Source: Planctomycetota bacterium
GTDB lineage: Bacteria; Planctomycetota; UBA8108; UBA1146
Length of the DNA: 48,181 nucleotides
Assembly (NCBI GenBank): GCA_012960845.1
Contig: DUAN01000015.1
Location: 1 to 48,181, forward strand
Direction: 5' to 3'
A model generated the notes under the pieces. The model ran no database searches, was not told the origin of the DNA, and worked only from the letters and a program-made list of their open reading frames with translations. Shown here piece after piece: positions 2,392 to 41,034 of the stretch. Each line of letters opens with the position of its first letter. Positions within the stretch are counted from its first letter, which is position 1. A program made the translations under genes and the position numbers.

Positions 2392-5172
2392 TTGGACCGC
2401 AGTTTCCTGGGCACTACCTGTGGATTTCTCGAGTCCTCGGCGAGGAAGATCCTGGCTCTCGCCGATGGAGAGCCTGCTGAGGGCTCTCGCTCGCATCCAT
2501 TCGACCTGCGGGAATTGGTGGTACTGGTGCCAGGTCGTCAGGCGGGGCGACGTTTACGCCGATTGCTGGTCGAGCAGGCAGACACCGGCGGTCGCGGACT
2601 TCTTCCCCCGCTCATCACCACTCCGGGTCATCTTGAGGAAGCGCTCTGCAACCCCGAACAGCCCTTCGTCAGCGTCCTCGAGGATCGAATCGCCTGGATC
2701 GACGCCCTGCGCAGCTGCCCCGAGCACACTCTCACGACCCTCGGAATCGACCCCGAATCCCTCGGAGCGGCGACACTGCTGCCGCTGGCACGCCTCTTCT
2801 CACGCCTCGGCTCCGATCTTCGCCGAGAAGGTTTGACCCTCTCTGTCGCCGCAGAGGCCGCCTCACATCACGACCCGGATGCGGCGCTGCGACTGCGGGC
2901 GGTCGAACAGATCGAGGCGCTTCGCTCTGCCCGTTTGAGAGCGGTCGGCCTCACTGACACCGGCACCTTCCACATCGCCCCGATGGCAACTCAGCCTCGG
3001 GTCATCCTGATCGGAATCCTCGAAATTCCGGCCCAGATGCGACGGTGGCTCGATCAGTATTGCCAGGCAGAGGCATGGATCGATACCGAGCAGAATCGTG
3101 CCCACCTGTATGACGAGTTGGGGATTCCCATCCCTGAAGAGTGGGACAATTTGCCCTTTACTGGACCGATCGACCTGGTGGTGGCGGATGACCCGCGCTC
3201 CTTGACCGCCTCCTTGCTCCAGCAGATCGATCAACATTCAGGTCCCTCGAGCAGTGACGATGTCACCATCGGCCTGGTCGATCAGGAACTGTCACCTTGG
3301 CTGCTGGAAGGGTTTCGGCGCGCTCAGGTTCCGCTCCACATCGGCGGTGGAACTCCGCATTCATCCTCCTCTTGTGGACGCTTGCTGGCCGATCTTCGGC
3401 AGGCGCTAGCGACTTTTTCCAGCCACGCGATCGCCGCTCTGGCCCGACATCCTGCGATCCATCCTCGTTTACCGCGAGCAACCGATCGACACGGGCGGGA
3501 ACTCGATCCGCTCGAAACAATCGACCGCTGGGCCACCGCTCGGCAGCCGGTGCTGGCAACCGACCCCCTCGCCCCTGAGGCGGTGCAGTTCATTCGAAGT
3601 GCCATCGAGCCGCTCAGAGAAGTACCCAGCACTCGCGGCGATCGGGTCCAGCCACTGCTCGATGCGATCACTGCCCTGGTCGGGGGCGACGATTGGCAGC
3701 AACCTCTCTTGCCGCAATCGGGTCTCGACGGGCTGATCTCAGCGGTGCAGAAAGTGATGCAGATCGAAGATCGCAACCTGCCACCGCTCTCCAGCGTCGA
3801 CACCATCTCCTTGATCATCGATCTGCTGGAAGACTCTCCGATCCCTGACCGACATGGAAACCGTGCCATCGGTGTGCTGGGTTGGCTCGAGCTTCCCTTC
3901 GATTCCGCGCCACTGCTGCTATTGACCGGCGCTACAGAGGGACAACTCTCTCCGGCCCCCGCCGGAGATCCGTTGCTTCCCCATGGGGTCCGCGAACAGC
4001 TGGGAATGGCGGGTCCGGCGCATCGCAATGCCAGGGATGCACATCTCCTCCACTCCCTGATCGATTCACGTCGCAAGACGGTGGTTGCCATCTGCGCCAG
4101 AAACGGCGATGGAAATCCACTTCTGCCGAGCCGTCTGCTGTTACAAGGGCCCGATGGCCTCGCGCGACTGGAGCAATTTCTCGATCGCAATCGTCGCCAT
4201 CGCTTCCACCTCCCCGAGACGAGCCCGCCCGCCAGCAGTCCCGCCTCGCTGGGTGCTCCGCAGGGGGTGACCTTGCCATCACCGGACTCGGTCGCCATCA
4301 CATCTCTGTCGTACTATCTCGAGGACCCGGTTTTGTTTCAGATGAATCAAGTCCTTCGTCTGCATGACTGCCACGATCGTGATCGCCAGCTCAATCCACT
4401 CGCATTCGGCAATCTGATCCACAAGATACTGGAGCAATACGGTCTCGATCGTCAACTTCGAGATCTATCGGACGAGGGACAGATCCGCGACGCTCTGCAC
4501 CAGTTACTCGATCGATACCGGCGAGAGAGAATCGCAGATCCAGCACACTCCGCGGTGCTGGTACAACTGGAACAGGCCCGAGTTCGCCTCGATGCGTGGG
4601 CTACGGTCCAGGCGCACCAGCGCGCACTCGGCTGGCGTTTGGTCGCAGCGGAAGTGGATCTCCTTCCTGCGTTGTGCCGCATAGATGTGGCCGAGGGGAG
4701 CATCGGACTGTCCGGTCGAATCGATCGCATCGACTATCATGAGCAGGAACAACGCTGGCGATTACTCGATTACAAGACGGGCGATACGGGCCATCCTCCC
4801 GAAAAAGATCACAGGAGGGGGCGGTCGAAAGATGAGAAAATCTGGGTACGTCTGCAACTTCCGCTCTATCGGCACTTTGCCCATCAACTGGAGATCGACG
4901 GACGGCAAGTTTCTTCCGAAGCAGAGGTGGGATTTTTTCTGTTGCCCGCGAAACCCGCTCAGACCCGTATCGAGATCGCCCGCTGGCATGAGGATGATTA
5001 TGCACAAGCCTACCAGCGAACCTGCGAGGCGATCAGTGGCATCCTGACCGGATGTCTGGAGCCTCTCACGGTGCTGAAGACCCCCTGGCAAAGAGCCCTG
5101 GCCGGAGTCGTGGTCGAGTCGGCCGCTCGACTCGATGGCATCCTCTCCTCCGATGAGGAGGAGCAAGAATGA
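2392..5172 (+). CDS. AddB-like protein: inactivated superfamily I helicase with PD-(D/E)XK nuclease
   Basis: 926 residues. The C-terminal third has a RecB-family nuclease: a histidine in FGNLIHKILEQYG (about 677), GRIDRID (about 773) and LDYKTGD (about 793) supply the H, D and D-x-K residues. The N-terminal part shows the helicase-fold pattern of AddB without a Walker A motif. With the next gene it should form a two-subunit enzyme that resects double-strand breaks for RecA-dependent repair. The four cysteines that hold the [4Fe-4S] cluster in classical AddB are missing: the segment before the nuclease reads SYYLEDPVLF and the C-terminus has no Cys. The start is TTG at 2392, 8-9 nt after GGGAGGA. 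The stop overlaps the next gene by 4 nt (ATGA). Confidence 0.85.
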   Translation: MDRSFLGTTCGFLESSARKILALADGEPAEGSRSHPFDLRELVVLVPGRQAGRRLRRLLVEQADTGGRGLLPPLITTPGHLEEALCNPEQPFVSVLEDRIAWIDALRSCPEHTLTTLGIDPESLGAATLLPLARLFSRLGSDLRREGLTLSVAAEAASHHDPDAALRLRAVEQIEALRSARLRAVGLTDTGTFHIAPMATQPRVILIGILEIPAQMRRWLDQYCQAEAWIDTEQNRAHLYDELGIPIPEEWDNLPFTGPIDLVVADDPRSLTASLLQQIDQHSGPSSSDDVTIGLVDQELSPWLLEGFRRAQVPLHIGGGTPHSSSSCGRLLADLRQALATFSSHAIAALARHPAIHPRLPRATDRHGRELDPLETIDRWATARQPVLATDPLAPEAVQFIRSAIEPLREVPSTRGDRVQPLLDAITALVGGDDWQQPLLPQSGLDGLISAVQKVMQIEDRNLPPLSSVDTISLIIDLLEDSPIPDRHGNRAIGVLGWLELPFDSAPLLLLTGATEGQLSPAPAGDPLLPHGVREQLGMAGPAHRNARDAHLLHSLIDSRRKTVVAICARNGDGNPLLPSRLLLQGPDGLARLEQFLDRNRRHRFHLPETSPPASSPASLGAPQGVTLPSPDSVAITSLSYYLEDPVLFQMNQVLRLHDCHDRDRQLNPLAFGNLIHKILEQYGLDRQLRDLSDEGQIRDALHQLLDRYRRERIADPAHSAVLVQLEQARVRLDAWATVQAHQRALGWRLVAAEVDLLPALCRIDVAEGSIGLSGRIDRIDYHEQEQRWRLLDYKTGDTGHPPEKDHRRGRSKDEKIWVRLQLPLYRHFAHQLEIDGRQVSSEAEVGFFLLPAKPAQTRIEIARWHEDDYAQAYQRTCEAISGILTGCLEPLTVLKTPWQRALAGVVVESAARLDGILSSDEEEQE

Positions 5173-8100
5173 GTTTCTCTCCTCACCTACTGATCCGGGC
5201 CAGTGCCGGATCCGGCAAGACTCACTCGCTGACCAGTCGATTCATCGGCCTGCTGGTGATGGGAGAAGATCCTTCCGGGATTCTCGCCGTCACCTTCACC
5301 CGCCTCGCCGCTGGCGAGATCATGGAGCGAGTACTGCGCCGGATGCTCTCTGCCACGAGAAGTGCCGCTGCACTGAAAGAACTGCAAGCGTCCCTGGTGA
5401 CGGCAGGATTCCCACAACCCAGCGAGGAGCAGATCGCAGCAGCACTCGGACGATTGCTCAGCGAATTACATCGCTGCAATGTCTCGACCCTGGATGCCTT
5501 CTTTGCACGACTGGCGACCGCCCATACCTTTGAATGTGGCCTGCCCCCGGGCTGGACGATTCTCGAGACCGAAAAACTGGAGGCGATCCAGGCCGGAGCG
5601 ATCCAGAAACTGCTGTCGATGGGTACAGAAGTGGAAGCACGACTTCTGATGCACCGGCTGAGCCGCGGAAGTGCCTCGAGCCAGGTGGCAAATCAGTTGC
5701 AAGCGATCGTTTCCCACGCACACGACAAGTATCTCGAGTTCCCTCCCGAGGCATGGCTGAATCCGGAGCTGATCGCAGCGCCCAGCGATCGAGAGATTCA
5801 ATTGGTCCGTGAACAGTTCGAGTCGGTGGAGTGCCCCAAGACCAAGAGTGGATCTCTTCACGGGGGCTGGCACAAATCCCTCGAGTTGATCCGCTCATGG
5901 TTCGACCAACCGGCATCGATCGACCTGATGAAACTGCTCGAATCCGGAATCGCCAAAAAAGTCCTCGAATCGGAGACTCGGTTCTACTCCATCGATATCC
6001 CCGATGAACTACGAGTGACGGTCGAGTTGCTGGTGCACAGCGCCAGGGCCAGCATGGCCGCGGTGATTCGTGCCCAGAACATGGCCACCGGAGAGTTGCT
6101 GGCGAACTACGATCATTTCAGGGCCATCGGACTACGCGCTCAAGGCGGAGTGGCATACCAGGATGTACCCCAGGCACTGGTCATCGCCGATGTCCTCGCC
6201 TCTCCAGGCACCATCCTCTATCGACTCGACGCATCGACTCGTCACCTGCTACTCGATGAGTTTCAGGACACCTCGATGATGCAATTCGCCGCACTTCGCC
6301 CGCTCATCGAGGAGGTCGCCAGTGATTCTGCAGAGGGGCGCACGGTCTTCTGCGTGGGGGATCCGAAGCAGGCGATCTACGGCTGGAGAGGAGGGCGAGC
6401 AGAGGTCCTCGATCTGCTCGAAAAGTACCTGGTTCCAGGATCGAGCATGAGTCTCGACGAATCGTACCGCTCCTCGCAGGAGATTCTCGATGGGGTGAAC
6501 GAGGTTTTCTGCTCCTTACCCCTGCCCCAATGGTTGGAGGAGGATCGCCAGGCGGTGGTCTCCTGGTGCGAGCACTTCCACGACCATGTCACCGCCTCCG
6601 GCGGACCGGGAGACACTCCGGGTCATGTGGCGTTACGCGTGGCTCGAGAGCATCCAGGGCGCGATCCCAACATTTGCCCCTACATCGACGCCATCGAGGA
6701 GGTGGAAAGAGTCATCCAGAAGTCACCGGAGGCTTCGATCGCCATCCTGGTCCGAAAGAACAAGAACATCGCCAAGATGGTGGCCGCCCTCAAAGAAAGG
6801 GGCATCGATGCCAGTGAGGAGGGTGGAAACCCGCTGGTCGATTCGCCGGCAGTCGGACGGTTGGTGGCATTGCTGGAACTGGTCGAGCACCCTGGGGATG
6901 CAACGATGCGGTTCGCCGTGGCCAGATCTCCAATCCCCGAAATCGCCAGTAAACTGGCCGGATTCCCCAGCGGTGACTGGCTTGATCCAGCGGTTGCGGA
7001 GGAAGGCGCGAATCTGCTGAGGGATCGGATTCATCAGCTGGGAATCGTCGATGCCATCGCTCCGCTGGCGGATGGATTGGCACAGATCTGCTCGCTCGAG
7101 GACCGCAGTCGAATTCATCAGATGATGGAGCAAGTGCGCCTCCGCAAACCCGCCAACGGACGACTGCAAGAATTGATCTCTCATCTGAGAAAACACCGCC
7201 TCGCATCTCCCAGTGGGTCGCGGGTACAGGTGATGACCGTTCACCAGGCCAAGGGGCTCGGGAGAGATGTGGTGATTCTGCCCGAACTTTCAGCGGACTG
7301 GTTCAAAGTCCTTCCGCAATTGTTGGAGAGAAAAGGGAATTCAGAATCTACCGATCCTCCGTGGCTCAGCCGCTACATCAAGAAACTGGAACAGCAGATT
7401 CTTCAGCAGCCCTACCCCGAGATGAACCGACAGGCGCGGCGCCGTCAGTTGCAAGAATCGCTGAGCGTCCTCTATGTGGCGATGACCAGGGCCAAGCGGT
7501 CGCTGACGATGATCATTCCAGCCACACGTCCACCGATCGCTTCCGCGGCCTACCTGCTCTGGTCGACCCTCGGTCAATCGCAACCTCTGGTGTCAGGGAC
7601 CACTTTGTTCGAAAAGGGAGACGCATCAGTGGTCGGAGAAATCAGCGGAAAGGGTGATGCTCCCTCCCAGGATGCTCCCATCCCCACTCTCGTGGCTTCC
7701 ACTACAGGAAGCACCATCACCCCTTCGATGCATGCCTCCAGATTTCCCTCACTTCGTTCCCTTCATGCCCAATCACTCGGCACCCTGGCTCACCTTGCGC
7801 TGGAACAGATCGACTGGGCAGTGGCTGAACCAAGGGACCTGACCGCAGCGATGAAGAAACAACAACCTCGCCTCGAATCTTTCACTGGAGAGACGCTCGA
7901 GTTGATCGGTCACTGCCTCGAGCAAGAAGGTTGTCAGCAACTCTTTGATCGAGAATCGACTCTCCAACGGCTGGGAGCCCAACAGGATGATGAACTGATC
8001 CTCGAGCGAGAGGTCCCCTTCTCCTGTGAGGTCGAGCAGAATCTGCTCAACGGAATCATCGACCGGCTGGTACTTCTCGAACGGGGCGGAGTCGCGGTCG

Positions 8101-8282
8101 CCGCAGAGGTGATCGATTTCAAGACTGACCAGTTTTCTGGCAGCGCTTCAGATGCTGCCGAGAAGCACCGCGAGCAACTGGAAAGTTACAGGAAGGCAGT
8201 GTCGCGGACCTGGGGAATCGACCCAACGATGATCGCATTGAGGATCTTGCTGATACGCAGTGGAGAAGTGATCACCCTCTAG
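5169..8282 (+). CDS. AddA-like UvrD-family helicase with C-terminal nuclease
   Basis: 1037 residues with the superfamily I helicase motifs in order: Walker A RASAGSGKT (10-18), motif Ia VTFTRLAAGEIMERV (about 39), motif II LLLDEFQDTS (about 360), motif III FCVGDPKQAIYGWRGG (about 393), motif V MTVHQAKGLGRDVV (about 689) and motif VI LYVAMTRAKRSL (about 768). A second RecB-type nuclease lies at the end: GIIDRL, then VIDFKTDQF near 980. This is the ATP-driven 3'-5' motor and one of the two nucleases of an AddAB-type enzyme. It is translationally coupled to the AddB-like gene by ATGA. Its TAG stop (8280-8282) shares a CTAG palindrome with the stop of the convergent gene. I left the symbol empty because planctomycete pairs diverge from Bacillus AddAB. 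Confidence 0.9.
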   Translation: MSFSPHLLIRASAGSGKTHSLTSRFIGLLVMGEDPSGILAVTFTRLAAGEIMERVLRRMLSATRSAAALKELQASLVTAGFPQPSEEQIAAALGRLLSELHRCNVSTLDAFFARLATAHTFECGLPPGWTILETEKLEAIQAGAIQKLLSMGTEVEARLLMHRLSRGSASSQVANQLQAIVSHAHDKYLEFPPEAWLNPELIAAPSDREIQLVREQFESVECPKTKSGSLHGGWHKSLELIRSWFDQPASIDLMKLLESGIAKKVLESETRFYSIDIPDELRVTVELLVHSARASMAAVIRAQNMATGELLANYDHFRAIGLRAQGGVAYQDVPQALVIADVLASPGTILYRLDASTRHLLLDEFQDTSMMQFAALRPLIEEVASDSAEGRTVFCVGDPKQAIYGWRGGRAEVLDLLEKYLVPGSSMSLDESYRSSQEILDGVNEVFCSLPLPQWLEEDRQAVVSWCEHFHDHVTASGGPGDTPGHVALRVAREHPGRDPNICPYIDAIEEVERVIQKSPEASIAILVRKNKNIAKMVAALKERGIDASEEGGNPLVDSPAVGRLVALLELVEHPGDATMRFAVARSPIPEIASKLAGFPSGDWLDPAVAEEGANLLRDRIHQLGIVDAIAPLADGLAQICSLEDRSRIHQMMEQVRLRKPANGRLQELISHLRKHRLASPSGSRVQVMTVHQAKGLGRDVVILPELSADWFKVLPQLLERKGNSESTDPPWLSRYIKKLEQQILQQPYPEMNRQARRRQLQESLSVLYVAMTRAKRSLTMIIPATRPPIASAAYLLWSTLGQSQPLVSGTTLFEKGDASVVGEISGKGDAPSQDAPIPTLVASTTGSTITPSMHASRFPSLRSLHAQSLGTLAHLALEQIDWAVAEPRDLTAAMKKQQPRLESFTGETLELIGHCLEQEGCQQLFDRESTLQRLGAQQDDELILEREVPFSCEVEQNLLNGIIDRLVLLERGGVAVAAEVIDFKTDQFSGSASDAAEKHREQLESYRKAVSRTWGIDPTMIALRILLIRSGEVITL

Positions 8283-32651: not shown

Positions 32652-33090
32652 CAGGAGCCTCCACCAGCAGCATCTGTAGTTGAGCGACATGCTCCGATTC
32701 GACAGCCACCTGCTGTCGGGCAAACTCCTCCAGCACCACATCCCCACTACCGTCGACATGGTCGAGCAGGTCACGGTAACCATCGAGCGCTGCCTGTTCA
32801 AAGATCAGCGCCTCTGCAATCGCCTGCGGGCCAGAATATCGCCGTCCATCGAGATCCAGTTGGATTCTTGGAGTCGGATTGCCACCGAGTTGAAGGATCT
32901 TTTCGCTGACCTGTTGAGCGTGCTCGATGGTCTCATCGTGATTCTCTTGCAAGACCTTTTGAACGATCAATCGATCGATCCCTTGCACCATCGAACTGAG
33001 GTGCAAGTAACGGATCGCGGCCTCCAGTTCCTCGGCGAGCAAGGCATTGAGTTTTTCAATCGCTTCGGTGCGAGAGATGAATCGGGTCAT
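32638..33090 (-). CDS. Bacterioferritin/ferritin-like diiron protein
   Basis: 150 residues forming a four-helix bundle. Diiron ligands are suggested by E-E-L-E-A-A-I-R-Y (helix A), E-N-H-D-E-T-I-E-H (helix B), E-Q-A-A-L-D-G-Y (helix C) and E-S-E-H-V (helix D). The spacing fits bacterioferritin-type or related ferritin-like proteins that oxidise and store iron. It is shorter than E. coli Bfr (158) but otherwise complete. The heme-binding Met cannot be assigned with confidence. It overlaps the DtxR-type regulator by ATGA, so iron storage is expressed with the sensor. Dps is less likely, since the E-x-x-H pairs are in four separate helices. Confidence 0.82.
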   Translation of the reverse strand: MTRFISRTEAIEKLNALLAEELEAAIRYLHLSSMVQGIDRLIVQKVLQENHDETIEHAQQVSEKILQLGGNPTPRIQLDLDGRRYSGPQAIAEALIFEQAALDGYRDLLDHVDGSGDVVLEEFARQQVAVESEHVAQLQMLLVEAPVGDQ

Positions 33091-33635
33091 GATGGTTGAT
33101 CCTCACCTTGGGGGTCCTTCTTCTCGAGTCGAAGAGCCAACTCTTGCGTCTCGTTGCCTGGAAAAGAGGTAGGAGTGGCAGCGGCTAGCCGCTGGAGAGA
33201 TTCGAGCAAGTGAGTCCACTGCGAGTCCGAGGAGATCTTCTCCAACCCGACCAGGAAACCGCCGGTGGCTTCTGCGGTCTGGTCGCTGATGAGATGCTCG
33301 ACCTTGCAGGCATCTTGTTCCGCCACCTCGTCGGGAACTCCCAGTACCTCACGAAAAAGTGCCTGGATCAGGATCCGCTTGGTACGAATTCCTCGGGCGA
33401 TTTGAACTCCTTGCTCCGACAGAGAAAGGTGCTTGTGATCGTCCTCGACCACCAGGCCTCGCTGGCGCAGCCCCTTGAGTGTGACCGAGACACTGCCTCG
33501 GGTGATGCCCAGGTGCCTCGCCACATCGGAGACGCGGGCATATCCCTGATCATCGAGGAGCCACTGGATGGTGGTCAGGTGATGCGCCGCCGAGTGGCTC
33601 ACGGGATTCTGCTCGAATTCTCGCCAGTCGCTCAC
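33087..33635 (-). CDS. DtxR-family metal-dependent transcriptional regulator, iron-type
   Basis: 182 residues from GTG 33635 (AGGAGGATTC just upstream). A winged helix-turn-helix occupies about 30-75 (VARHLGITRGSVSVTLKGLRQRGLV). The metal/dimer domain has C110, E113 and H114 in DACKVEH, matching the C-x-x-E-H primary-site motif of DtxR/IdeR (C102, E105, H106); in manganese sensor MntR the Cys is Glu. This favours iron sensing. The C-terminal SH3-like domain is not evident, so it is a two-domain form. Its gene is the first of the ferritin/ABC operon and diverges from feoA. The inverted repeat at 33716-33731 between them, also found at 41019-41034, is its most likely binding site. Confidence 0.88.
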   Translation of the reverse strand: MSDWREFEQNPVSHSAAHHLTTIQWLLDDQGYARVSDVARHLGITRGSVSVTLKGLRQRGLVVEDDHKHLSLSEQGVQIARGIRTKRILIQALFREVLGVPDEVAEQDACKVEHLISDQTAEATGGFLVGLEKISSDSQWTHLLESLQRLAAATPTSFPGNETQELALRLEKKDPQGEDQPS

Positions 33636-33715
33636 GAATCCTCCTGAAAGGTCAGAACCAGAACTCGCCGCAAAGGCCAGCATTGGTACCCTTGGGGGCC
33701 TTTACAGTCGACAAG

Positions 33716-33731
33716 TTTGGTAACCCAAACA
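33716..33731. promoter_or_regulatory. Putative DtxR-type operator, copy 1
   Basis: Perfect inverted repeat GTTTGG-TAAC-CCAAAC (6-bp arms, 4-base spacer) between the divergent regulator and feoA genes. It ends 3 bases before a TTGACA -35 of feoA. The same element occurs before the porin/FeoB operon. Its size and A/T-GG...CC-A/T layout resemble known DtxR/IdeR/MntR boxes. Confidence 0.75.
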
Positions 33732-33764: not shown

Positions 33765-33879
33765 TCATTCATGAGGGTGGACTTGGCGCCGGTGCCAGAG
33801 CACCTGCCAAGGGTAGCCGCAGCGGAGCGGCGAGACAATCCGCCATTTCTGGCGATCCAGGCCTTTCGAGGAGTAATTG

Positions 33880-34236
33880 ATGTATCGAGAAATCTCCAAT
33901 CAGGATCATCTGGGCTCCACGCCCCTCCCGCAGCAGTCCCGGACTGTCGACTCCTCTGCACTCGACTCCTCTGCTCTCCACTCGTCTGCCATCGACTTCC
34001 CCCCTGTCGCCCCCCGCTTGCTGAGGGATCTGAATCGGGGTCAACGGATCCGCCTGGTCCGCGAATCGGTGCCCGAATCTCACCGGCCCCTGCTCGAAGC
34101 GATGGGCCTGTGCAACGACTGCGATCTTCACCTGTGTCAATCGAGAGGTACCTGCATCCTCGATATCGATGGAAGCCGTGTCGGGATCAGTGAGCAGGTC
34201 GCTTCCTCGATCCTCGCAATTCCCGTCTCTTCATAG
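33880..34236 (+). CDS. feoA: FeoA-domain ferrous iron transport protein
   Basis: 118 residues. Residues from about 50 (LRDLNRGQRIRLV) to the end (VGISEQVASSIL) match the SH3-like FeoA domain, with the typical LLEAMGL segment. FeoA is a small cytoplasmic partner of FeoB in Fe(II) uptake. The first 45 residues are unusual: a Ser/Asp-rich stretch with three repeats D-S-S-A-L / H-S-S-A-I, encoded by 15-base repeats. ATG 33880 is preferred over TTG 33877 because GAGGAG is six bases upstream. FeoB itself is in the separate minus-strand operon, so feoA and feoB are split but share the same operator motif. Confidence 0.88.
   Translation: MYREISNQDHLGSTPLPQQSRTVDSSALDSSALHSSAIDFPPVAPRLLRDLNRGQRIRLVRESVPESHRPLLEAMGLCNDCDLHLCQSRGTCILDIDGSRVGISEQVASSILAIPVSS
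33949..33993 (+). repeat. 15-bp tandem repeat in the feoA N-terminus
   Basis: Three 15-base units, GACTCCTCTGCACTC, GACTCCTCTGCTCTC and CACTCGTCTGCCATC, code for Ser-Ser-Ala repeats before the FeoA domain. They probably form a disordered leader. Confidence 0.85.
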
Positions 34237-34263: not shown

Positions 34264-34917
34264 GTGACTCGATTCTACAAGCAAGCCAACTTCACCCTGG
34301 CCAGGGCCAATCCATCGACCCGAGTACTCCTGACCCTGTTCTTGCTGACGGTCCTGCTCGGTTGTTTTGTGGCACTTCTTCAGTATTCGGGACGATCCGG
34401 TGGATTCACCGCAGTAGATGCTCGCCAATGGGTTCAGGGAAATGAAGAGCAACTCGATGCCGAGGTGTTGATCCCCAGCAAGAGTTCTGTCGAGATGCTC
34501 GCCATCATCCACGACCACATCTTCTCACTCGCAGTGCTGCTCTTCGTGGTGCTGCATCTGGTCGAACTGACCCCGTGGAGCGAAGGTCCAAAGATCACAC
34601 TGTCATTGCTCGGATACGGTTCCCTGCTACTGACCCTGTTCGCTCCCTGGTGGCTTCAGCATGAAACGCCCGGCAGCGATTCGATGACTCCGCTATCGAT
34701 GATGCTAGGCGGCAGCCTGCTGCTGCTGAGTCTGTCGCTCGGTTCGATCGCTTGTCTCGATGAACTGTGGTGGGCTCCGATTCGAAGAAAAGGGAGGAAA
34801 CAGCCGGAACCGGCTGCTCCCTCCCCACTCCATCCGGGTCAGGGGGCTCGATCGGATCGTTGTCCGATGGGGCACCAGGATCCTCGCTCCTCGACCGACG
34901 ATCACTCGCCTGAGTGA
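34264..34917 (+). CDS. Four-helix membrane protein downstream of feoA
   Basis: 217 residues from GTG 34264. Four hydrophobic segments: VLLTLFLLTVLLGCFVALLQ (about 22-41), FSLAVLLFVVLHLVEL (about 87-102), TLSLLGYGSLLLTLFAPWW (about 111-129) and MMLGGSLLLLSLSLGSIACL (about 145-165). The second helix is preceded by H-D-H and contains another His (VVLHL), and a further His follows helix 3 (WWLQHE). These could ligate heme b, but this is conjecture. The C-terminus is a Pro/Ser/Arg-rich tail. I do not recognise the family. It is 27 bases after feoA with a weak ribosome site, so it is probably co-transcribed and iron-regulated. Confidence 0.65.
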   Translation: MTRFYKQANFTLARANPSTRVLLTLFLLTVLLGCFVALLQYSGRSGGFTAVDARQWVQGNEEQLDAEVLIPSKSSVEMLAIIHDHIFSLAVLLFVVLHLVELTPWSEGPKITLSLLGYGSLLLTLFAPWWLQHETPGSDSMTPLSMMLGGSLLLLSLSLGSIACLDELWWAPIRRKGRKQPEPAAPSPLHPGQGARSDRCPMGHQDPRSSTDDHSPE

Positions 34918-34920
34918 TCG

Positions 34921-36093
34921 CTAGAGTTTCGCCTCCGCTTCCCTGGCCGCCTTCCACTGGTCGATCAGGGTCTCGAGCGCAGCGTCGAGAGTTTCACCCC
35001 GGACATCCTTGTAGCGAATCACTCCGTGCTCATCGAGGAGATAGGTGGTAGGCCAGCCGCTGACATTCCAGCGAGTGGCGATGGGACCATCGGTCCCACC
35101 TCCATCGAAAAAGCTCTTCCAGGTCAGTTTGTTTTTCTCCACCGCTTCGCGAGCCGCCTCGATGGTATCCTCGGAGTTGATTCCTACGATGGCAAACTGA
35201 TCTGCTGGGTGCTTCTTCACGAGCGACCGCTCGTGTGGGTACATCGCCCGGCAAGGGCCTCACCAATCACCCCAGAAATCGATCAGCACCACCTTGCCGC
35301 GAAACGCAGAGAGTTGCATCAGATTGCCATCGATGCTGGCTCCGATGATCTCGGGTGCCACTTGTCCGACCTGCAGATGATCCAGTTCGAACAGATCTCC
35401 TGCGACCTTCTCGCCATAGGTGGTCTCCCGAAAAAATGGCACATCCGCGAACTCTTTCTGGACCCGTTCGAGAAGTTGCTTCCCCTCGGCTCTCGTCTCT
35501 TCTGAAGATCCGAGCAGTTTTCCAAGGGCATAGAAGGCAGAGCCCTGGACACTGCGATGCGGTGATCGATCTGCAACGGCTCTCAGCAGTAACAGGTTTT
35601 GCGCGGAGGGTGGATTGTAGTGGCCGAATCGAACCAGGTCCTTGAGATCGGGATGCTCGATGTAATCGACAAGGATCCGGTCCACCACCTGCTCGAGAAT
35701 CCAGCCATTCTTTTCATCTCTCGAGGCCATCGAGATCAACTGAGAAAGAGCTTCGAGGCACGCAGTGGTCCCCGGATGGTCACTGCTGAACTTGAACAAC
35801 TCAGGCAGGAACATCGCACCTGGATCCTTCTCTGGATCCAGTTCGATGGCGTCTCGTTCCTCGGCAGTCTTCGCTTCTCGCAGCGGGGCCAGATACTCGG
35901 TCCATGCCTCATCCATCCGCTTCTGCATCTTGTCCATCGCAACGCGTGCGGCAGTCTCCTGTGCCTTGGTCACCACCGCGGGGGCTGGATCGTCGAGCAT
36001 CACCACAGTCGATGCGGAGCCGTGGATCGGTGCGAGGCAAAGGAGGATGGTCAGCTTCAGCAGGAGAAATGGATGAGTAGTACTCGTCTTCAT
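34921..36093 (-). CDS. Secreted selenocysteine-containing thioredoxin/TlpA-like protein (UGPC)
   Basis: One 390-residue protein read through an in-frame TGA (35262-35260) as selenocysteine 278. Signal peptide about 1-28 (ending IHGSAS). Residues 30-240 are a mostly helical N-terminal domain. The rest is a TlpA/AhpC-type thioredoxin fold: KVVLIDFWGDW-U-GPC-RAMYPHE places the TGA exactly at the first Cys of W-C-G-P-C, and the cis-Pro follows in VSGWPTTYLLDEHG. Homology runs without break on both sides of the TGA. A hairpin fitting the bacterial SECIS rules begins 25 nt after it. Sec would act as the attacking residue in disulfide or peroxide reduction. A simple nonsense mutation (TGC to TGA) is the alternative. 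It is the last gene of the porin/FeoB operon, 97 bases after the Cys-rich peptide gene. The selenocysteine machinery is not in this window. Confidence 0.85.
35218..35235 (-). promoter_or_regulatory. Bacterial SECIS-like hairpin for Sec278
   Basis: In the mRNA: CACGAGC-GGUC-GCUCGUG, a perfect 7-bp stem with a GGUC loop. The loop Gs are 32-33 nt after the UGA. Published bacterial SECIS models ask for a short stem-loop with a G at the start of the apical loop, 16-37 nt after UGA; this fits. The hairpin also codes for THERSLVK-type residues (HERSLV). Confidence 0.8.
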
Positions 36094-36190: not shown

Positions 36191-36337
36191 TTATTTCGCG
36201 GAGCAACCACCGCAAGAACCGTTCTGGTCCTGATCGTCCGACTGACGAACTCGTTTCACGATCAGCAGTACCACCGCTGCCACAGCCAGTAGCGTCACCC
36301 ACCAGAATTGAGGATCGGAGAGGGGGAATTGGTTCAT
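36191..36337 (-). CDS. FeoB-associated Cys-rich membrane peptide
   Basis: 48 residues: an N-terminal membrane helix (WWVTLLAVAAVVLLIVKRV) followed by a short charged segment and a C-terminal CGGC motif (GSCGGCSAK). This matches the small FeoB-associated Cys-rich proteins (Pfam FeoB_associated) often encoded after feoB. ATG 36337 overlaps the feoB stop by ATGA. Its role in Fe(II) transport is not settled; metal relay or regulation of FeoB has been suggested for such peptides. Confidence 0.85.
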   Translation of the reverse strand: MNQFPLSDPQFWWVTLLAVAAVVLLIVKRVRQSDDQDQNGSCGGCSAK

Positions 36338-38292
36338 CCAGAAAATCCTGCGGCCATCATCCACTGACGTGCCACCACTCCGAGGATCCACGCTACGGAT
36401 GTCATCCAGATCAGTTGCAGCAGCGCCCAGCGGATCCCTCCCGCCTCACGACTGGTCACCACCAGGGTCGGCAAGCACTGCATCGCCAGGATGTAGAAGA
36501 CCAGCAGTCCTCCAGCAGCCGCAGGAGGAAGCAACGGCGATCCATCATCTCGTTTCGATTTGCGGATTCGAGCGATGGAACTCGCTGCAGCCTCCTCTGC
36601 ATTGACCCCCACCATCACATTGAGTGAAGAGACGAACACTTCTCTCGCAGCAAAACTCGCCAGGATCGCCACCGACAGTTGCCAATCAGCACCGATCGGG
36701 GCCAGAACAGGCTCGATCCAGCGACCCAGTTGACCGGCGTAGGATCCCCTCGCCGACTCCCTCAGATGAAGAGACTGCGCCTGGTCCAGCAGCCGTTGTG
36801 ACTGCCCCGGATCGGAGTGCGCTTGAGCCGCGACACGAAGGGCCTCGATCTCCGGACCTTCTGGCGTCGACGGATAAGTACTGAGCCACCACAAGGCGAT
36901 ACAGATCAGCAGGATCACCGACCCGGCATTCTTCAAGAAGGTCCATCCTCGATCGATGGCGATGCGAGCGGCGTCGCCGATCGACGGCAGGCGGTAGGGT
37001 GGTAGTTCCAGCACCATCGGCAGGCTGGGTCCGGTCAACAGGGTCTTGCGGACCAGACCCGCAGATCCCACTGCCACCAGCGCTCCGAGCAAGTAGCAGC
37101 CGACGAATACGCAGCCCGCGACCAGCGGATTGGCCGGGGCGAGGATCCCGACCATCAAGATGTACACCGGCAACCTCGCCGAGCAGGAGAGGAACGGCGC
37201 CACCAGGATGGTGGCGAGCCGATCTCTTCGATCGGGAATCAGTCGGGTACAGAGAATTCCTGGAATCGCACAGGCGTGACTCGAAAGGAGCGGTACGAAC
37301 GCCTGTCCCGGCAAGCCGAAGGGCCGAAGCCAGCGGTCCGCGACGAATGCGGCTCGCGCCATGTAGCCTGTTTCTTCCAGCAAGGAGATGAGAAAGAAGA
37401 GCAGCAGGATTTGCGGCAAGAAGATCATCGTTCCCGAGATTCCACCGATGACTCCGTCCACCAGCAGTCCACGCAACGGACCATCTTCCATCGAAGTGGA
37501 GATCCACTCCCCGACGGTTCCAAACGCCACATCGATCCACTCCATCGGTACCTGAGCCATCCAGTAGACCGATCCGAACATGATGATCATCGCCAGCAAG
37601 AAGAGAAGAGAACCGGCGATGGGATGCACCAGCACACGGTCGAGTCGATCATCTCTCCTTCGCCTTCTGCGAGCCTGCTCGGGACGGACCGGAAGACTTG
37701 TCTTCGCCAGCAGATCTGAACTCCACTGATCGATCGACTGCGGATCTCCGGGAACCGACGTGGGTATCCGTGCAGCAGCGATCAGCGCTTCCACATCGAG
37801 GGTCCGCATCGCCGATTTCTCCGCAGCCTCGAATACCGGGATTCCCAGCGACTCTTCCAACGCCTGCAACTGAATCTGGTAACCACGAAGTTGTGCCTCG
37901 GCAGTTTTCGTTACCACCGCTGCCATCGGAACTCCCAGTGCCAGCAACTGTGCCAGAAGCTGGAAGTTTCTCGGGAATCCCACTGCTTCGATGACCACGA
38001 TGATCAGATTCTGTTGCTGACTTTGCAGCGGTCCATCAAATTTCAGGTGCTGGTGACACAACTGAGCCTCGGGAAGATCGAGCTGGAGGCTATAAGTTCC
38101 CGGCAAGTCGGTGACGATGCGCAGTTGCTGTGCCCCGAAAAACTCACCGATCACCGAATCTGCAGTGATCCCCGGGTAGTTGGAGATTCTCGAATTTGCG
38201 CCCACCAGAGCATTGAAAAGAGTGCTCTTTCCGACGTTGGGATTTCCCACAAGGGAGATGTGTACCGTCGCATCGGCAGATTCCATGGCCAT
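36334..38292 (-). CDS. feoB: Ferrous iron transporter FeoB with degenerate G4 motif
   Basis: 652 residues. The N-terminal G domain has G1 GNPNVGKST (17-25), switch I NYPGIT and G3 DLPGTYS (62-68). The membrane part has the two Gate regions (LLSSHACAIPGIL; FLSCSARLPVYI) with the conserved Cys-Ser-Ala-Arg-x-P. It imports Fe(II). The G4 motif that reads N-x-x-D in ordinary FeoB, giving guanine specificity, is TKTA here (about 128-131), and the usual Asp of 'VVDA' is Glu (VVIEAV). Nucleotide preference may therefore be relaxed. It is shorter than E. coli FeoB (773). ATG 38292 shares one base with the previous stop; the second Met, two codons on, is also possible. It lacks a fused FeoA, which is encoded elsewhere. 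Confidence 0.93.
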   Translation of the reverse strand: MAMESADATVHISLVGNPNVGKSTLFNALVGANSRISNYPGITADSVIGEFFGAQQLRIVTDLPGTYSLQLDLPEAQLCHQHLKFDGPLQSQQQNLIIVVIEAVGFPRNFQLLAQLLALGVPMAAVVTKTAEAQLRGYQIQLQALEESLGIPVFEAAEKSAMRTLDVEALIAAARIPTSVPGDPQSIDQWSSDLLAKTSLPVRPEQARRRRRRDDRLDRVLVHPIAGSLLFLLAMIIMFGSVYWMAQVPMEWIDVAFGTVGEWISTSMEDGPLRGLLVDGVIGGISGTMIFLPQILLLFFLISLLEETGYMARAAFVADRWLRPFGLPGQAFVPLLSSHACAIPGILCTRLIPDRRDRLATILVAPFLSCSARLPVYILMVGILAPANPLVAGCVFVGCYLLGALVAVGSAGLVRKTLLTGPSLPMVLELPPYRLPSIGDAARIAIDRGWTFLKNAGSVILLICIALWWLSTYPSTPEGPEIEALRVAAQAHSDPGQSQRLLDQAQSLHLRESARGSYAGQLGRWIEPVLAPIGADWQLSVAILASFAAREVFVSSLNVMVGVNAEEAAASSIARIRKSKRDDGSPLLPPAAAGGLLVFYILAMQCLPTLVVTSREAGGIRWALLQLIWMTSVAWILGVVARQWMMAAGFSG

Positions 38293-39728
38293 CAGGGACT
38301 TAACTTCCCGTAGCCTCGCGCGCTCTTCTCCCCCGCAACCAGGATCAGGGCCCCGGCCCCGTGAACTCGATCCAGCAACGGATCGGCATGATCGGGACCG
38401 AGCACCGCCAGTGCGGTACTGAAGGCATCCGCCCGGGTCGCATCGGGGATCAGGACGGTAGTCGACAGCGCCACCACTGCAGCCTGACCCTGCTGGGGAT
38501 CGATGATGTGATCTCCCTTCTCATAGGTCGCACTGGTGGCGAGACTGGAGCCCACCAGCGGGATCGAGCGTAGCAGCGAGTTCGCCTCGTTCCCCTTCAC
38601 CCTTGGATCATGGATCCCGACCAGCCAGGACGATTCTCCCGGGGGAGGATCCAGTGCCAGTAGTTGTCCGCCAAAGTCGAGCAAAGCTCTCGAATGACCG
38701 AGTTCCCTCAGGATCTCGGCCGCTCGATCCAGAGCATATCCCTTGCCGATCCCGCCGAGGTCGAGGATCAAATCGTCGCGTTGTCTCGTGATGGTGCCCG
38801 TGGCCCGATCGACATCGATCCGCAAGTAGCCATCGGCCACCAGAGTCGGATCGAAAGCACCACCGCTCTCTCTGGCGATCTGTAACGCTGCACTCACACA
38901 CTCGATCGTATCCGCGGACACCTTCACCGGTTGACCCGCAGGTGCCTGCTCGACTCGACTCACATCGCTGTGTGGATTCCAGCGGCTCAACAGCTGCTCG
39001 AGACGTCGCACCTCGTCGAACACCTCGGAGATGACCTGCTCCGCCTCGGGTCCGTAGACCTCGACCCGCAGGACTGTACCCATCGCAGGCCGAACTCGAA
39101 CCACCGCGACCGATCGATCCGCCTCCAGCTCGCCCTCGACCGTCGAAGAGACCGGAGAGAGCCACGGCTTCCAGCGGATCGGACTGTTCCCATCGCATAC
39201 CTCTGCGACGGTGGCTAGGGCTCTACGTACGGCACGCACCGAGGCGCGCGCCGAGAGGGTCGCCCCGGAGAGATTTCGGATCTCTCGGTGTAGTTTGAAG
39301 GGTGGTTGAGCAGCGCGGTTTCTGAACTGTCGGGTAAATCTGGGTGATGCGATCTGCTTGCCGATGTGCTCCCGGTAAACCAGAACCTGAAGGTCGTGGA
39401 CCCGCTTCTCTGGATGGATCGCCACCAGAAATGTGATGGGACGGTACTTCCCGATCTCATCGAGAAGCACTGCATCTCCGATCCACTGTTGTTTGGCATC
39501 GGAGACCCGGACCAGCATCACTGGCGCTGAGGGTACTGCGCTTCCACAACGCTGGGCGATCCGCTGACGGAGATCGCCCTTCATCTCCAGCACCACCGAT
39601 TCGTACCTCGCAGCCTGTGGCCATGCGGTCGAGATCGCTTGCTCGATGCTGGTCGGAGTCAGCCCGAACAACTGGGCCTCCGCAGTGGGAGCCGCCAGCA
39701 GTAGTGAGAGTAGTATCGTCAGCGTCAA
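38292..39728 (-). CDS. Fusion of FMN-binding domain and ApbE FAD:protein FMN transferase
   Basis: 478 residues from TTG 39728 (AGGAGAAG upstream). Signal peptide about 1-18 (LLSLLLAAPTAEA). Residues 20-170 are an NqrC/RnfG-type FMN-binding domain ending in the flavinylation motif LSGATLS; T157 is the expected attachment site. Residues from about 205 are ApbE: VRPAMGTVLRVEVYG, FDPTL, LDLGGIGKGYALDRAAEIL, LDFGGQLLAL and a C-terminal GADAFSTAL-like motif (TRADAFSTALAVLG). ApbE moves FMN from FAD to Thr of exported proteins, so this protein may flavinylate itself. Extracytoplasmic flavoproteins of this type carry electrons to external acceptors. Beside FeoB, reduction of Fe(III) to Fe(II) for import is a reasonable inference. 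Confidence 0.87.
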   Translation of the reverse strand: MTLTILLSLLLAAPTAEAQLFGLTPTSIEQAISTAWPQAARYESVVLEMKGDLRQRIAQRCGSAVPSAPVMLVRVSDAKQQWIGDAVLLDEIGKYRPITFLVAIHPEKRVHDLQVLVYREHIGKQIASPRFTRQFRNRAAQPPFKLHREIRNLSGATLSARASVRAVRRALATVAEVCDGNSPIRWKPWLSPVSSTVEGELEADRSVAVVRVRPAMGTVLRVEVYGPEAEQVISEVFDEVRRLEQLLSRWNPHSDVSRVEQAPAGQPVKVSADTIECVSAALQIARESGGAFDPTLVADGYLRIDVDRATGTITRQRDDLILDLGGIGKGYALDRAAEILRELGHSRALLDFGGQLLALDPPPGESSWLVGIHDPRVKGNEANSLLRSIPLVGSSLATSATYEKGDHIIDPQQGQAAVVALSTTVLIPDATRADAFSTALAVLGPDHADPLLDRVHGAGALILVAGEKSARGYGKLSP

Positions 39729-39739
39729 CGTGTCTTCTC

Positions 39740-40918
39740 CTAGAAGTAAGTTGCCATCGAGCAGATGAAGGTCGCGTCTGGGTCGGCTTGGTTTTCCACC
39801 ATCACCTGTTCGAGATCAAACTTGAAAATCGTCTCATCGGAAGGACGGATGTTGAAACCGATCGTCGATCGGCGCCTGCGATCGCCTCCCAGATCTTCAT
39901 CTTCAAAGCGCAGGGTCAGGCCGGAGGAGGACTCCGCTCCGAACCACTGCTCGAGGATGGCCGGATAGAAACGGCGTGATAGTTGGATCGAACTGGCCGC
40001 CAGTTGCGCAGGAACCCCGGCGGACCGGGCGGGAGCATCGAGTTCGATGGCGACCCTGGCCACTTCCATTTGTACCTCGATGGGTCCGATGGTGTCGAGG
40101 CCAGCGGTGATCTCGGTGGTGACATCGATCACTGCGATGGTCAGGTCCAGTTCCCCCTGCGAATCCCAACTTCCGTTCCAGGCGGACAATCCCACCTCGG
40201 TTCCCAGCTCTGGTCTCCACAAAAATCTCCCACAGAGGCTGGGAGATCGGTCGCCATTCTTCTTCAGTCCGGGACGTGCAGCACGAATCCCGCTGGTCGA
40301 ATCGATATTGTAGCCATCGATGGCATTCCCGCCGTTGAAACCATTGAGGGTATAGATCTCGAGGAGCCAATCTCCTTCCGCACCCTCCAGCAACGCACCG
40401 ACTCCGGCACTGGTCAGGGTAGTCGGCACCACTGTGCGCGCCACCAGCGGTCGCTGGGTCAGCGAACGAATCGGTGAATCATGGTGCAGGTTGGTCGATC
40501 CGAGCGGCACCAGGATGGCGCCGGTGCGCAACTGCCAACCACCCAGATCCACATCGACATGGGCGTACTCGACCTTGACCTCTCCGTCCGCGGTCGCCAC
40601 CTGCGGTCCGCCGTACTCGAACTCGATCTCGCAGGAGAAGTGAACATGCTCGGTGACCACTGCATCCAGCATCGGCACCAGTCGATGATTACGGAAATCG
40701 AAGCGATTCGAATCGATGAAGAGTTCCAGATCGAGGTAACCCCCGATCTGCACATCTCTCATCCGCTGGCCCCCCGACTCGCCATCGAGATTCCCTGCGA
40801 GATCTCCTTCGAGATTCCCCTGCTGGGCCGAGCCGATTGACCACCCCGAGGTCAGAGTGACGACCACCAGCAGCCAGCAGAGCCATTTCGCCACAGGAGA
40901 GCCATCTTGTTGCCCCAT
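39740..40918 (-). CDS. Outer-membrane porin-like beta-barrel protein
   Basis: 392 residues. Signal peptide with hydrophobic core WLCWLLVVVTLTSGWSIGSA. The mature protein is rich in alternating beta strands (IGGYLDLELFIDSNRFDFR; LVPMLDAVVTEHVHFSCEIEF; EYAHVDVDLGGWQLRTGAI) and ends in an aromatic residue (MATYF), as in OprP/phosphate-selective porin-like barrels. It probably lets small iron species or chelates across the outer membrane. ATG 40918 is preceded by GGATAGGATT. It is the first gene of the porin-ApbE-FeoB-selenothioredoxin operon. The DtxR-type operator copy 2 lies about 100 bases upstream. Confidence 0.75.
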   Translation of the reverse strand: MGQQDGSPVAKWLCWLLVVVTLTSGWSIGSAQQGNLEGDLAGNLDGESGGQRMRDVQIGGYLDLELFIDSNRFDFRNHRLVPMLDAVVTEHVHFSCEIEFEYGGPQVATADGEVKVEYAHVDVDLGGWQLRTGAILVPLGSTNLHHDSPIRSLTQRPLVARTVVPTTLTSAGVGALLEGAEGDWLLEIYTLNGFNGGNAIDGYNIDSTSGIRAARPGLKKNGDRSPSLCGRFLWRPELGTEVGLSAWNGSWDSQGELDLTIAVIDVTTEITAGLDTIGPIEVQMEVARVAIELDAPARSAGVPAQLAASSIQLSRRFYPAILEQWFGAESSSGLTLRFEDEDLGGDRRRRSTIGFNIRPSDETIFKFDLEQVMVENQADPDATFICSMATYF

Positions 40919-41018: not shown

Positions 41019-41034
41019 GTTTGGCAACCCAAAC
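41019..41034. promoter_or_regulatory. Putative DtxR-type operator, copy 2
   Basis: GTTTGG-CAAC-CCAAAC, identical to copy 1 except one spacer base (C for T). Flanking T and A extend the arms to 7 bp (41018-41035). It sits between the porin/FeoB operon (minus) and the methyltransferase gene (plus). The porin operon is the more likely target, since it holds the iron genes. Confidence 0.75.

Follow-up and report, generated by a model that had tools for sequence, protein, structure and literature searches.

A predicted selenocysteine thioredoxin at the end of a conserved ferrous iron uptake operon in an uncultured planctomycete

The window analysed here (the whole stretch of 48,181 nucleotides from a Planctomycetota bacterium) contains a ferrous iron uptake (Feo) locus. 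Its minus-strand operon runs in the order porin-like protein, FMN_bind-ApbE fusion, FeoB, CxxC FeoB-associated peptide and, last, a thioredoxin gene with an in-frame TGA. The genes for a putative FeoA-domain protein and a multi-TM protein face the operon on the plus strand, and a regulator gene is divergent from the FeoA gene. The features are as follows.

33087..33683, minus strand: DtxR/MntR-family metal-dependent repressor (PF02742 40.0 bits, PF01325 28.7 bits, both above cut-off)
33715..33730, no strand: operator GTTTGGTAACCCAAAC, in the intergenic region from which the regulator and FeoA genes diverge
33877..34236, plus strand: putative FeoA-domain protein, first start as listed, ATG at 33880 (PF04023 22.4 bits, cut-off 23; position conserved)
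34264..34917, plus strand: predicted multi-TM protein with conserved HDHIFSL and FVVLH motifs, its gene convergent with that of the thioredoxin (no Pfam match above cut-off)
34921..36093, minus strand: predicted Sec-containing TlpA/ResA-like thioredoxin, 390 aa (translation with TGA as U, PF00578, AlphaFold2, PDB matches); putative signal peptide ~1-30 (read from the sequence), helical domain ~43-239, thioredoxin domain ~240-390
35218..35235, minus strand: predicted SECIS hairpin CACGAGC-GGUC-GCUCGUG, encoding HERSLV, 24-41 nt downstream of the UGA
35260..35262, minus strand: in-frame UGA, codon 278, predicted Sec, first catalytic position of WUGPC
36191..36337, minus strand: putative 48-aa Cys-rich FeoB-associated membrane peptide, C-terminal SCGGCSAK (PF12669 22.8 bits, cut-off 27)
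36334..38292, minus strand: FeoB ferrous iron transporter (TIGR00437 390.8 bits, cut-off 315.65)
38292..39728, minus strand: FMN_bind and ApbE flavin transferase fusion, SGATLS flavinylation motif, TTG start as listed (PF04205 and PF02424 above cut-off)
39740..40918, minus strand: porin-like outer-membrane protein, first operon gene (PF07396 19.3 bits, cut-off 20.9; conserved in relatives)
41019..41034, no strand: operator GTTTGGCAACCCAAAC, ~100 nt upstream of the porin gene

The thioredoxin gene runs from 36093 to 34921 and has 390 codons, with the TGA at codon 278 (35262-35260). An earlier note on this DNA had given the same coordinates, to which we add the minus strand, and had recognized both that the TGA falls on the first catalytic Cys of a thioredoxin site and that the fold continues on either side of it; all of this was borne out. 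Under the standard code the gene appears, as the note had foreseen, as two open reading frames, 35260-36093 (277 aa) and 34921-35244 (107 aa), and reading the TGA as Sec gives a single 390-residue protein with U278 within LIDFWGDWUGPCRAMYPHERSLV. The joined product scores 63.1 bits against PF00578 (cut-off 26), its UGPC being a UxxC motif; the 3' fragment alone scores 26.5 bits and the 5' fragment has no match. The AlphaFold2 model (32 homologues; mean pLDDT of 89.7) has a disordered leader, a helical domain (residues 43-239) and a thioredoxin fold (residues 240-390). This C-terminal domain matches ResA, CcmG and TlpA-type structures (Foldseek and phmmer), and the helical domain is clearly covered by none of the PDB matches listed, the only long alignment (PDB entry 4yod) superposing badly (r.m.s.d. 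of 10). The protein falls below the NCBIfam equivalog cut-offs for ResA (68.7 against 170), DsbE (56.3 against 123) and TlpA (47.9 against 230).

Among 59 related genomes, each full-length orthologue from the genus and family has one TGA, always at the same alignment column. Two family genomes are uninformative: in G005 the match breaks off where the contig ends, short of the site, and G007 has only paralogue-like matches, most of which have TGA too. With 79 further loci added, the total is 108, of which 97 carry TGA at this column and the other 11 TGC or TGT; removal of duplicates (some genomes were fetched twice) leaves 91 distinct homologues, 80 with TGA and 11 with TGC/TGT, in a sample biased against TGA because one of the two seed patterns used for the 79 loci demanded Cys at the site. 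The nearest relatives retain TGA and TGC/TGT appears in more distant ones, as expected of Sec/Cys pairing; the state changes five times on a tree of 93 thioredoxin domains (a quick tree in which the Cys rows have long branches). Comparison with the three closest relatives gives dN/dS values of 0.17-0.23 for the part before the TGA and 0.08-0.14 for the part after it; for more distant pairs dS is saturated and dN/dS is only supportive. These ratios indicate that the part of the protein downstream of the TGA is under purifying selection. The case that would have spoken against the earlier note, TGC in close relatives with decay downstream, was not seen: the close relatives have TGA and a conserved downstream protein.

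Some distant homologues, from genomes of the same class (L039, L041 and L043), have two TGAs and so a UxxU motif, as in YULSURANWPHERSLV; they read as double-Sec thioredoxins. The same genome also carries, at a different location, a second Sec thioredoxin-like gene (paralogue L131; G000:C126:16612-17334) with WGDWUGPCRAMYPHERSLV and an identical SECIS. Other thioredoxin-like matches with an in-frame TGA lie on contigs C39 and C163.

A hairpin with a GGUC apical loop and a 6-7 bp stem begins 24 nt 3' of UGA-278. Across the 80 Sec homologues the third-position entropy of codons 287-291, which lie in this region, is 0.10, 0.48, 0.00, 0.10 and 0.27 bits, compared with 1.3-1.7 bits at conserved residues nearby (G266, V268, P280 and P286). 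Of 75 distinct Sec homologues, 66 have exactly the same 16-nt core, ACGAGCGGTCGCTCGT, which none of the 11 Cys homologues has; the closest of the latter (L077, L110 and L127) retain HERE or a similar peptide, encoded by other nucleotides. Only four of the 3456 synonymous encodings of HERSLV fold as stably. The 17-mer CACGAGCGGTCGCTCGT occurs 32 times in 20 of 59 planctomycete genomes, all 32 inside homologues of the Sec thioredoxin gene, and a minority of Sec homologues (L038, L099, L107, L113, L115 and L122) have a different sequence at the SECIS position. Energy folding of the window SECIS alone is not significant (z of about -1.3 to -1.7), so the argument for it is a comparative one. Covariation in the RNA offers little, since the hairpin scarcely varies; the changes among homologues are one two-sided (C-G to T-A, L104) and one one-sided (G-C to G-U, L109). 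On these comparisons we assign the hairpin as the predicted SECIS. Chance is excluded by the conserved TGA column, and also by dN/dS below 1 after the TGA and by a hairpin frozen at synonymous sites.

No Rfam family matched in the window at gathering thresholds. A second short helix, GGG:CCC, shows a compensatory GCG:CGC in the sisters L034 and L105; several other sequences break or shift it, so it is not claimed. Two contigs of genome G014, C39 (1-324) and C81 (2-853), each stop where a Sec-thioredoxin homologue has its SECIS hairpin, and the identical hairpin in paralogues may break the assembly at those ends. With a 16-nt core whose synonymous sites are near-invariant across much of the phylum, and a 17-mer confined to this family in the 59 genomes, the SECIS is a precise marker for a family that standard annotation splits in two.

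The host genome assembly (3.33 Mb, 243 contigs, 91% complete) encodes SelA, SelB, SelD and tRNA-Sec (UCA anticodon), so that the search for these four that the earlier note had proposed as a check found every one. The selA, selD and tRNA-Sec genes adjoin one another on contig C104 and selB lies on C137, and all four score above curated cut-offs; selA (527 bits) and selB (396 bits) both exceed their NCBIfam cut-offs, and selD scores 343 bits with one internal TGA. This selD (L018:9982-11034, contig C104 of G000, between selA and tRNA-Sec) is a selenoprotein gene itself (SCAGUAAKLPP), with a hairpin with a GGUCG-type loop 3' of its UGA; automated ORF calling places its start downstream of that UGA. 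Of the 20 genomes with the SECIS 17-mer, 19 yielded a SelB; none was found in G001 (assembly 90% complete). Among the 26 window genes inspected, 15 terminate in UGA, which is thus not generally reassigned. We therefore hold it to be almost certain, as judged from sequence comparison, that UGA-278 is decoded as Sec and that the product is a true selenoprotein: a secreted TlpA/ResA-type thiol-disulfide oxidoreductase whose active site is UGPC.

The proposal that this is the last gene of a porin-ApbE-FeoB operon also held, with the neighbours confirmed and the order conserved in relatives. The nearest named loci, L051-L059 and L061, share the arrangement over the extent that their contigs and the search cover. 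In 11 related loci, L060 among them, FeoB, the CxxC peptide and the thioredoxin remain linked, and this linkage persists over identities of 92% to 41%. The start of the CxxC peptide overlaps the FeoB stop (ATGA), and the peptide follows FeoB in all 11 relatives examined. In L060 the porin, ApbE and TM genes form a separate cluster on the opposite strand; FeoB, peptide and thioredoxin lie on the same strand and in order, with an acetyltransferase-like ORF (a reading of its translation) inserted among them. This tight Feo linkage is limited to one family-level clade and L060, the other Sec homologues of the phylum not being beside FeoB. A gap of 97 nt separates the CxxC peptide from the Sec thioredoxin gene, so a separate promoter is possible; no sigma-70 promoters or intrinsic terminators were found between 34800 and 36400.

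The multi-TM protein has a weak resemblance to b561 (E = 0.028) and its His is conserved in nearly all relatives; it is possibly a heme-b electron carrier. The multi-TM gene of L060 adjoins porin-ApbE, a placement that suggests an electron carrier for the flavinylated protein. A further locus, L054, is from a record titled Bacillota; it has the same operon (63% identity), was recovered again as a same-genus genome and is probably a mislabelled planctomycete MAG. Elsewhere in the window (2392-8282, plus strand) a PD-(D/E)XK nuclease and a UvrD-helicase protein are adjacent as an AddAB-like pair.

A DtxR-type operator had likewise been proposed, and the evidence agrees: the regulator scores above cut-off with PF01325 and PF02742, and there are two palindromes, which recur in 11 loci. 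Even with one mismatch allowed, the palindrome GTTTGGN4CCAAAC has only two sites in the genome, both at the Feo locus, and it is present in 11 of 11 related loci; since it is limited to the Feo locus and recurs in this way, assignment as a DtxR-type operator is well supported. MntR-type NCBIfam models are the best for the regulator, yet score below cut-off. Members of this family sense Fe or Mn, and we infer iron to be the signal here.

The best explanation of the locus as a whole is that the Sec thioredoxin is a periplasmic reductant for Fe(II) uptake, made with FeoB under the DtxR-family repressor; we put its probability at about 0.6. Sec would be inserted at UGA-278 by the host SelA/SelB/SelD/tRNA-Sec, directed by the GGUC-loop hairpin. 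The protein would be co-produced with FeoB under its dedicated repressor and would thus be expected mainly under iron shortage. It would most likely act in the periplasm as a fast reductant, with DsbD (encoded in the host genome on contig C86) as its presumed electron donor. The CxxC FeoB-associated peptide and similar thiols, which it may keep reduced, are candidate substrates and ferric iron is an alternative one; together with the flavinylated FMN_bind-ApbE protein it could keep iron ferrous for import by FeoB. It is likely that the Sec thioredoxin functions together with FeoB. Its role as a thiol or iron reductase is put forward tentatively. It is rather doubtful that iron acquisition is selenium-dependent, with a metal-repressed periplasmic selenoenzyme reducing ferric iron or FeoB-feeding thiols such that Fe(II) uptake needs selenium. 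Any connection with iron reduction or with protection against oxidation is one that we infer from genomic context. The structure matches include a mixed disulfide between TlpA and a copper chaperone (PDB entry 4txo), an earlier example of a thioredoxin that serves a metal carrier.

The strongest competitor, although we judge it unlikely, accepts a real selenoprotein and makes it a general periplasmic thioredoxin for thiol-disulfide repair or of the cytochrome c maturation type, with its position at feoB a lineage accident or a matter of co-expression in iron limitation. The closest solved structures, ResA, CcmG and TlpA, fit such a protein, as do the Sec paralogues with the same SECIS away from FeoB in the same genome (C126) and in the phylum; with other Sec homologues so placed, the enzyme probably has a general chemistry to which iron could be incidental. 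However, linkage to FeoB and the CxxC peptide has been held over the whole range from 92% to 41% identity and also after the rearrangement in L060, and the operator is dedicated to the Feo locus.

Oxidative protection, in which Sec would yield a reductase able to handle peroxide or to resist over-oxidation, and so to shield periplasmic proteins from Fe(II)-driven Fenton chemistry during iron import, is improbable. The protein does have an AhpC-TSA/Redoxin-type domain and is co-regulated with FeoB, and Sec thiol enzymes generally resist over-oxidation. Its motif, however, is the UxxC of thiol-disulfide oxidoreductases and not the TxxU of Sec peroxiredoxins (in the motif table of PMC1088965), and its nearest structures are disulfide reductases. 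A nonsense mutation, a sequencing error or a UGA read as another amino acid, in a pseudogene or under a changed code, would also have standard ORF calling split the gene, but is hardly credible and is rejected: four congeners and further family genomes share the TGA, dN/dS after it is far below 1, UGA serves as a stop codon in the window and the Sec machinery is complete.

Reading the protein as a periplasmic reductant for Fe(II) uptake ties selenium to ferrous iron import in uncultured planctomycetes through a conserved genetic arrangement, offers a concrete operon, an operator and predicted partners, and suggests that selenium chemistry helps these bacteria to acquire iron. Sec thioredoxin-like proteins are already known; the literature searched contained no Sec version conserved in a Feo operon that has an operator to itself, and no report linking a selenoprotein to FeoB or ferrous iron transport was found in titles and abstracts. 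Selenoproteins have been reported in planctomycetes (PMC4807772). UxxC Prx-like selenoproteins have been known since the Sargasso Sea survey (PMC1088965). A 2026 review tabulates Prx-like thiol:disulfide oxidoreductases (PF00578, UxxC/UxxU) and thiol-disulfide isomerase-like proteins (cd02966, UxxC); planctomycetes are absent from its main text (PMC13188914).

As far as the available parts of these descriptions go, the Prx-like Sec proteins share with the protein described here a PF00578/redoxin domain, the N-terminal Sec of UxxC, a SECIS directly past the UGA and Cys homologues, whereas the long N-terminal helical domain, the Feo operon, the DtxR-family operator and the near-invariant 16-nt SECIS core are not described for them. 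Their UxxU type is also present among the relatives (L039, L041 and L043, as above). The fold, secretion, a CxxC-type active site and the cis-Pro are common to ResA, TlpA and CcmG; here Sec replaces Cys, there is an extra N-terminal domain, scores are below every equivalog cut-off and the gene context is another.

The P19 iron clusters of Campylobacter and others have a thioredoxin or an FMN-binding protein in the same slot, proposed to be an extracytoplasmic iron reductant (PMC6083913, PMC8238504). P19-FTR1 (Campylobacter 1649-1656) resembles the present locus in having an extracytoplasmic thioredoxin and/or FMN-binding gene with an iron transporter and a metal regulator. It differs in that FeoB takes the place of FTR1/P19 here (neither P19, PF10634, nor FTR1 had a match among the scanned cluster proteins), the thioredoxin is a predicted selenoprotein, FMN carrier and thioredoxin occur together, and the regulator is of the DtxR family and not Fur. 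The flavinylation (ApbE/FMN_bind) clusters for iron assimilation (PMC8238504) similarly combine FMN_bind-ApbE with an iron transporter; to this the present locus adds a carrier-ApbE fusion, an unclassified His-containing multi-TM protein as membrane partner and the Sec thioredoxin. Thioredoxins and FMN-binding proteins recur in iron-uptake clusters in undefined roles, and a Sec version beside FeoB and a CxxC peptide makes the idea of thiol reduction directly testable.
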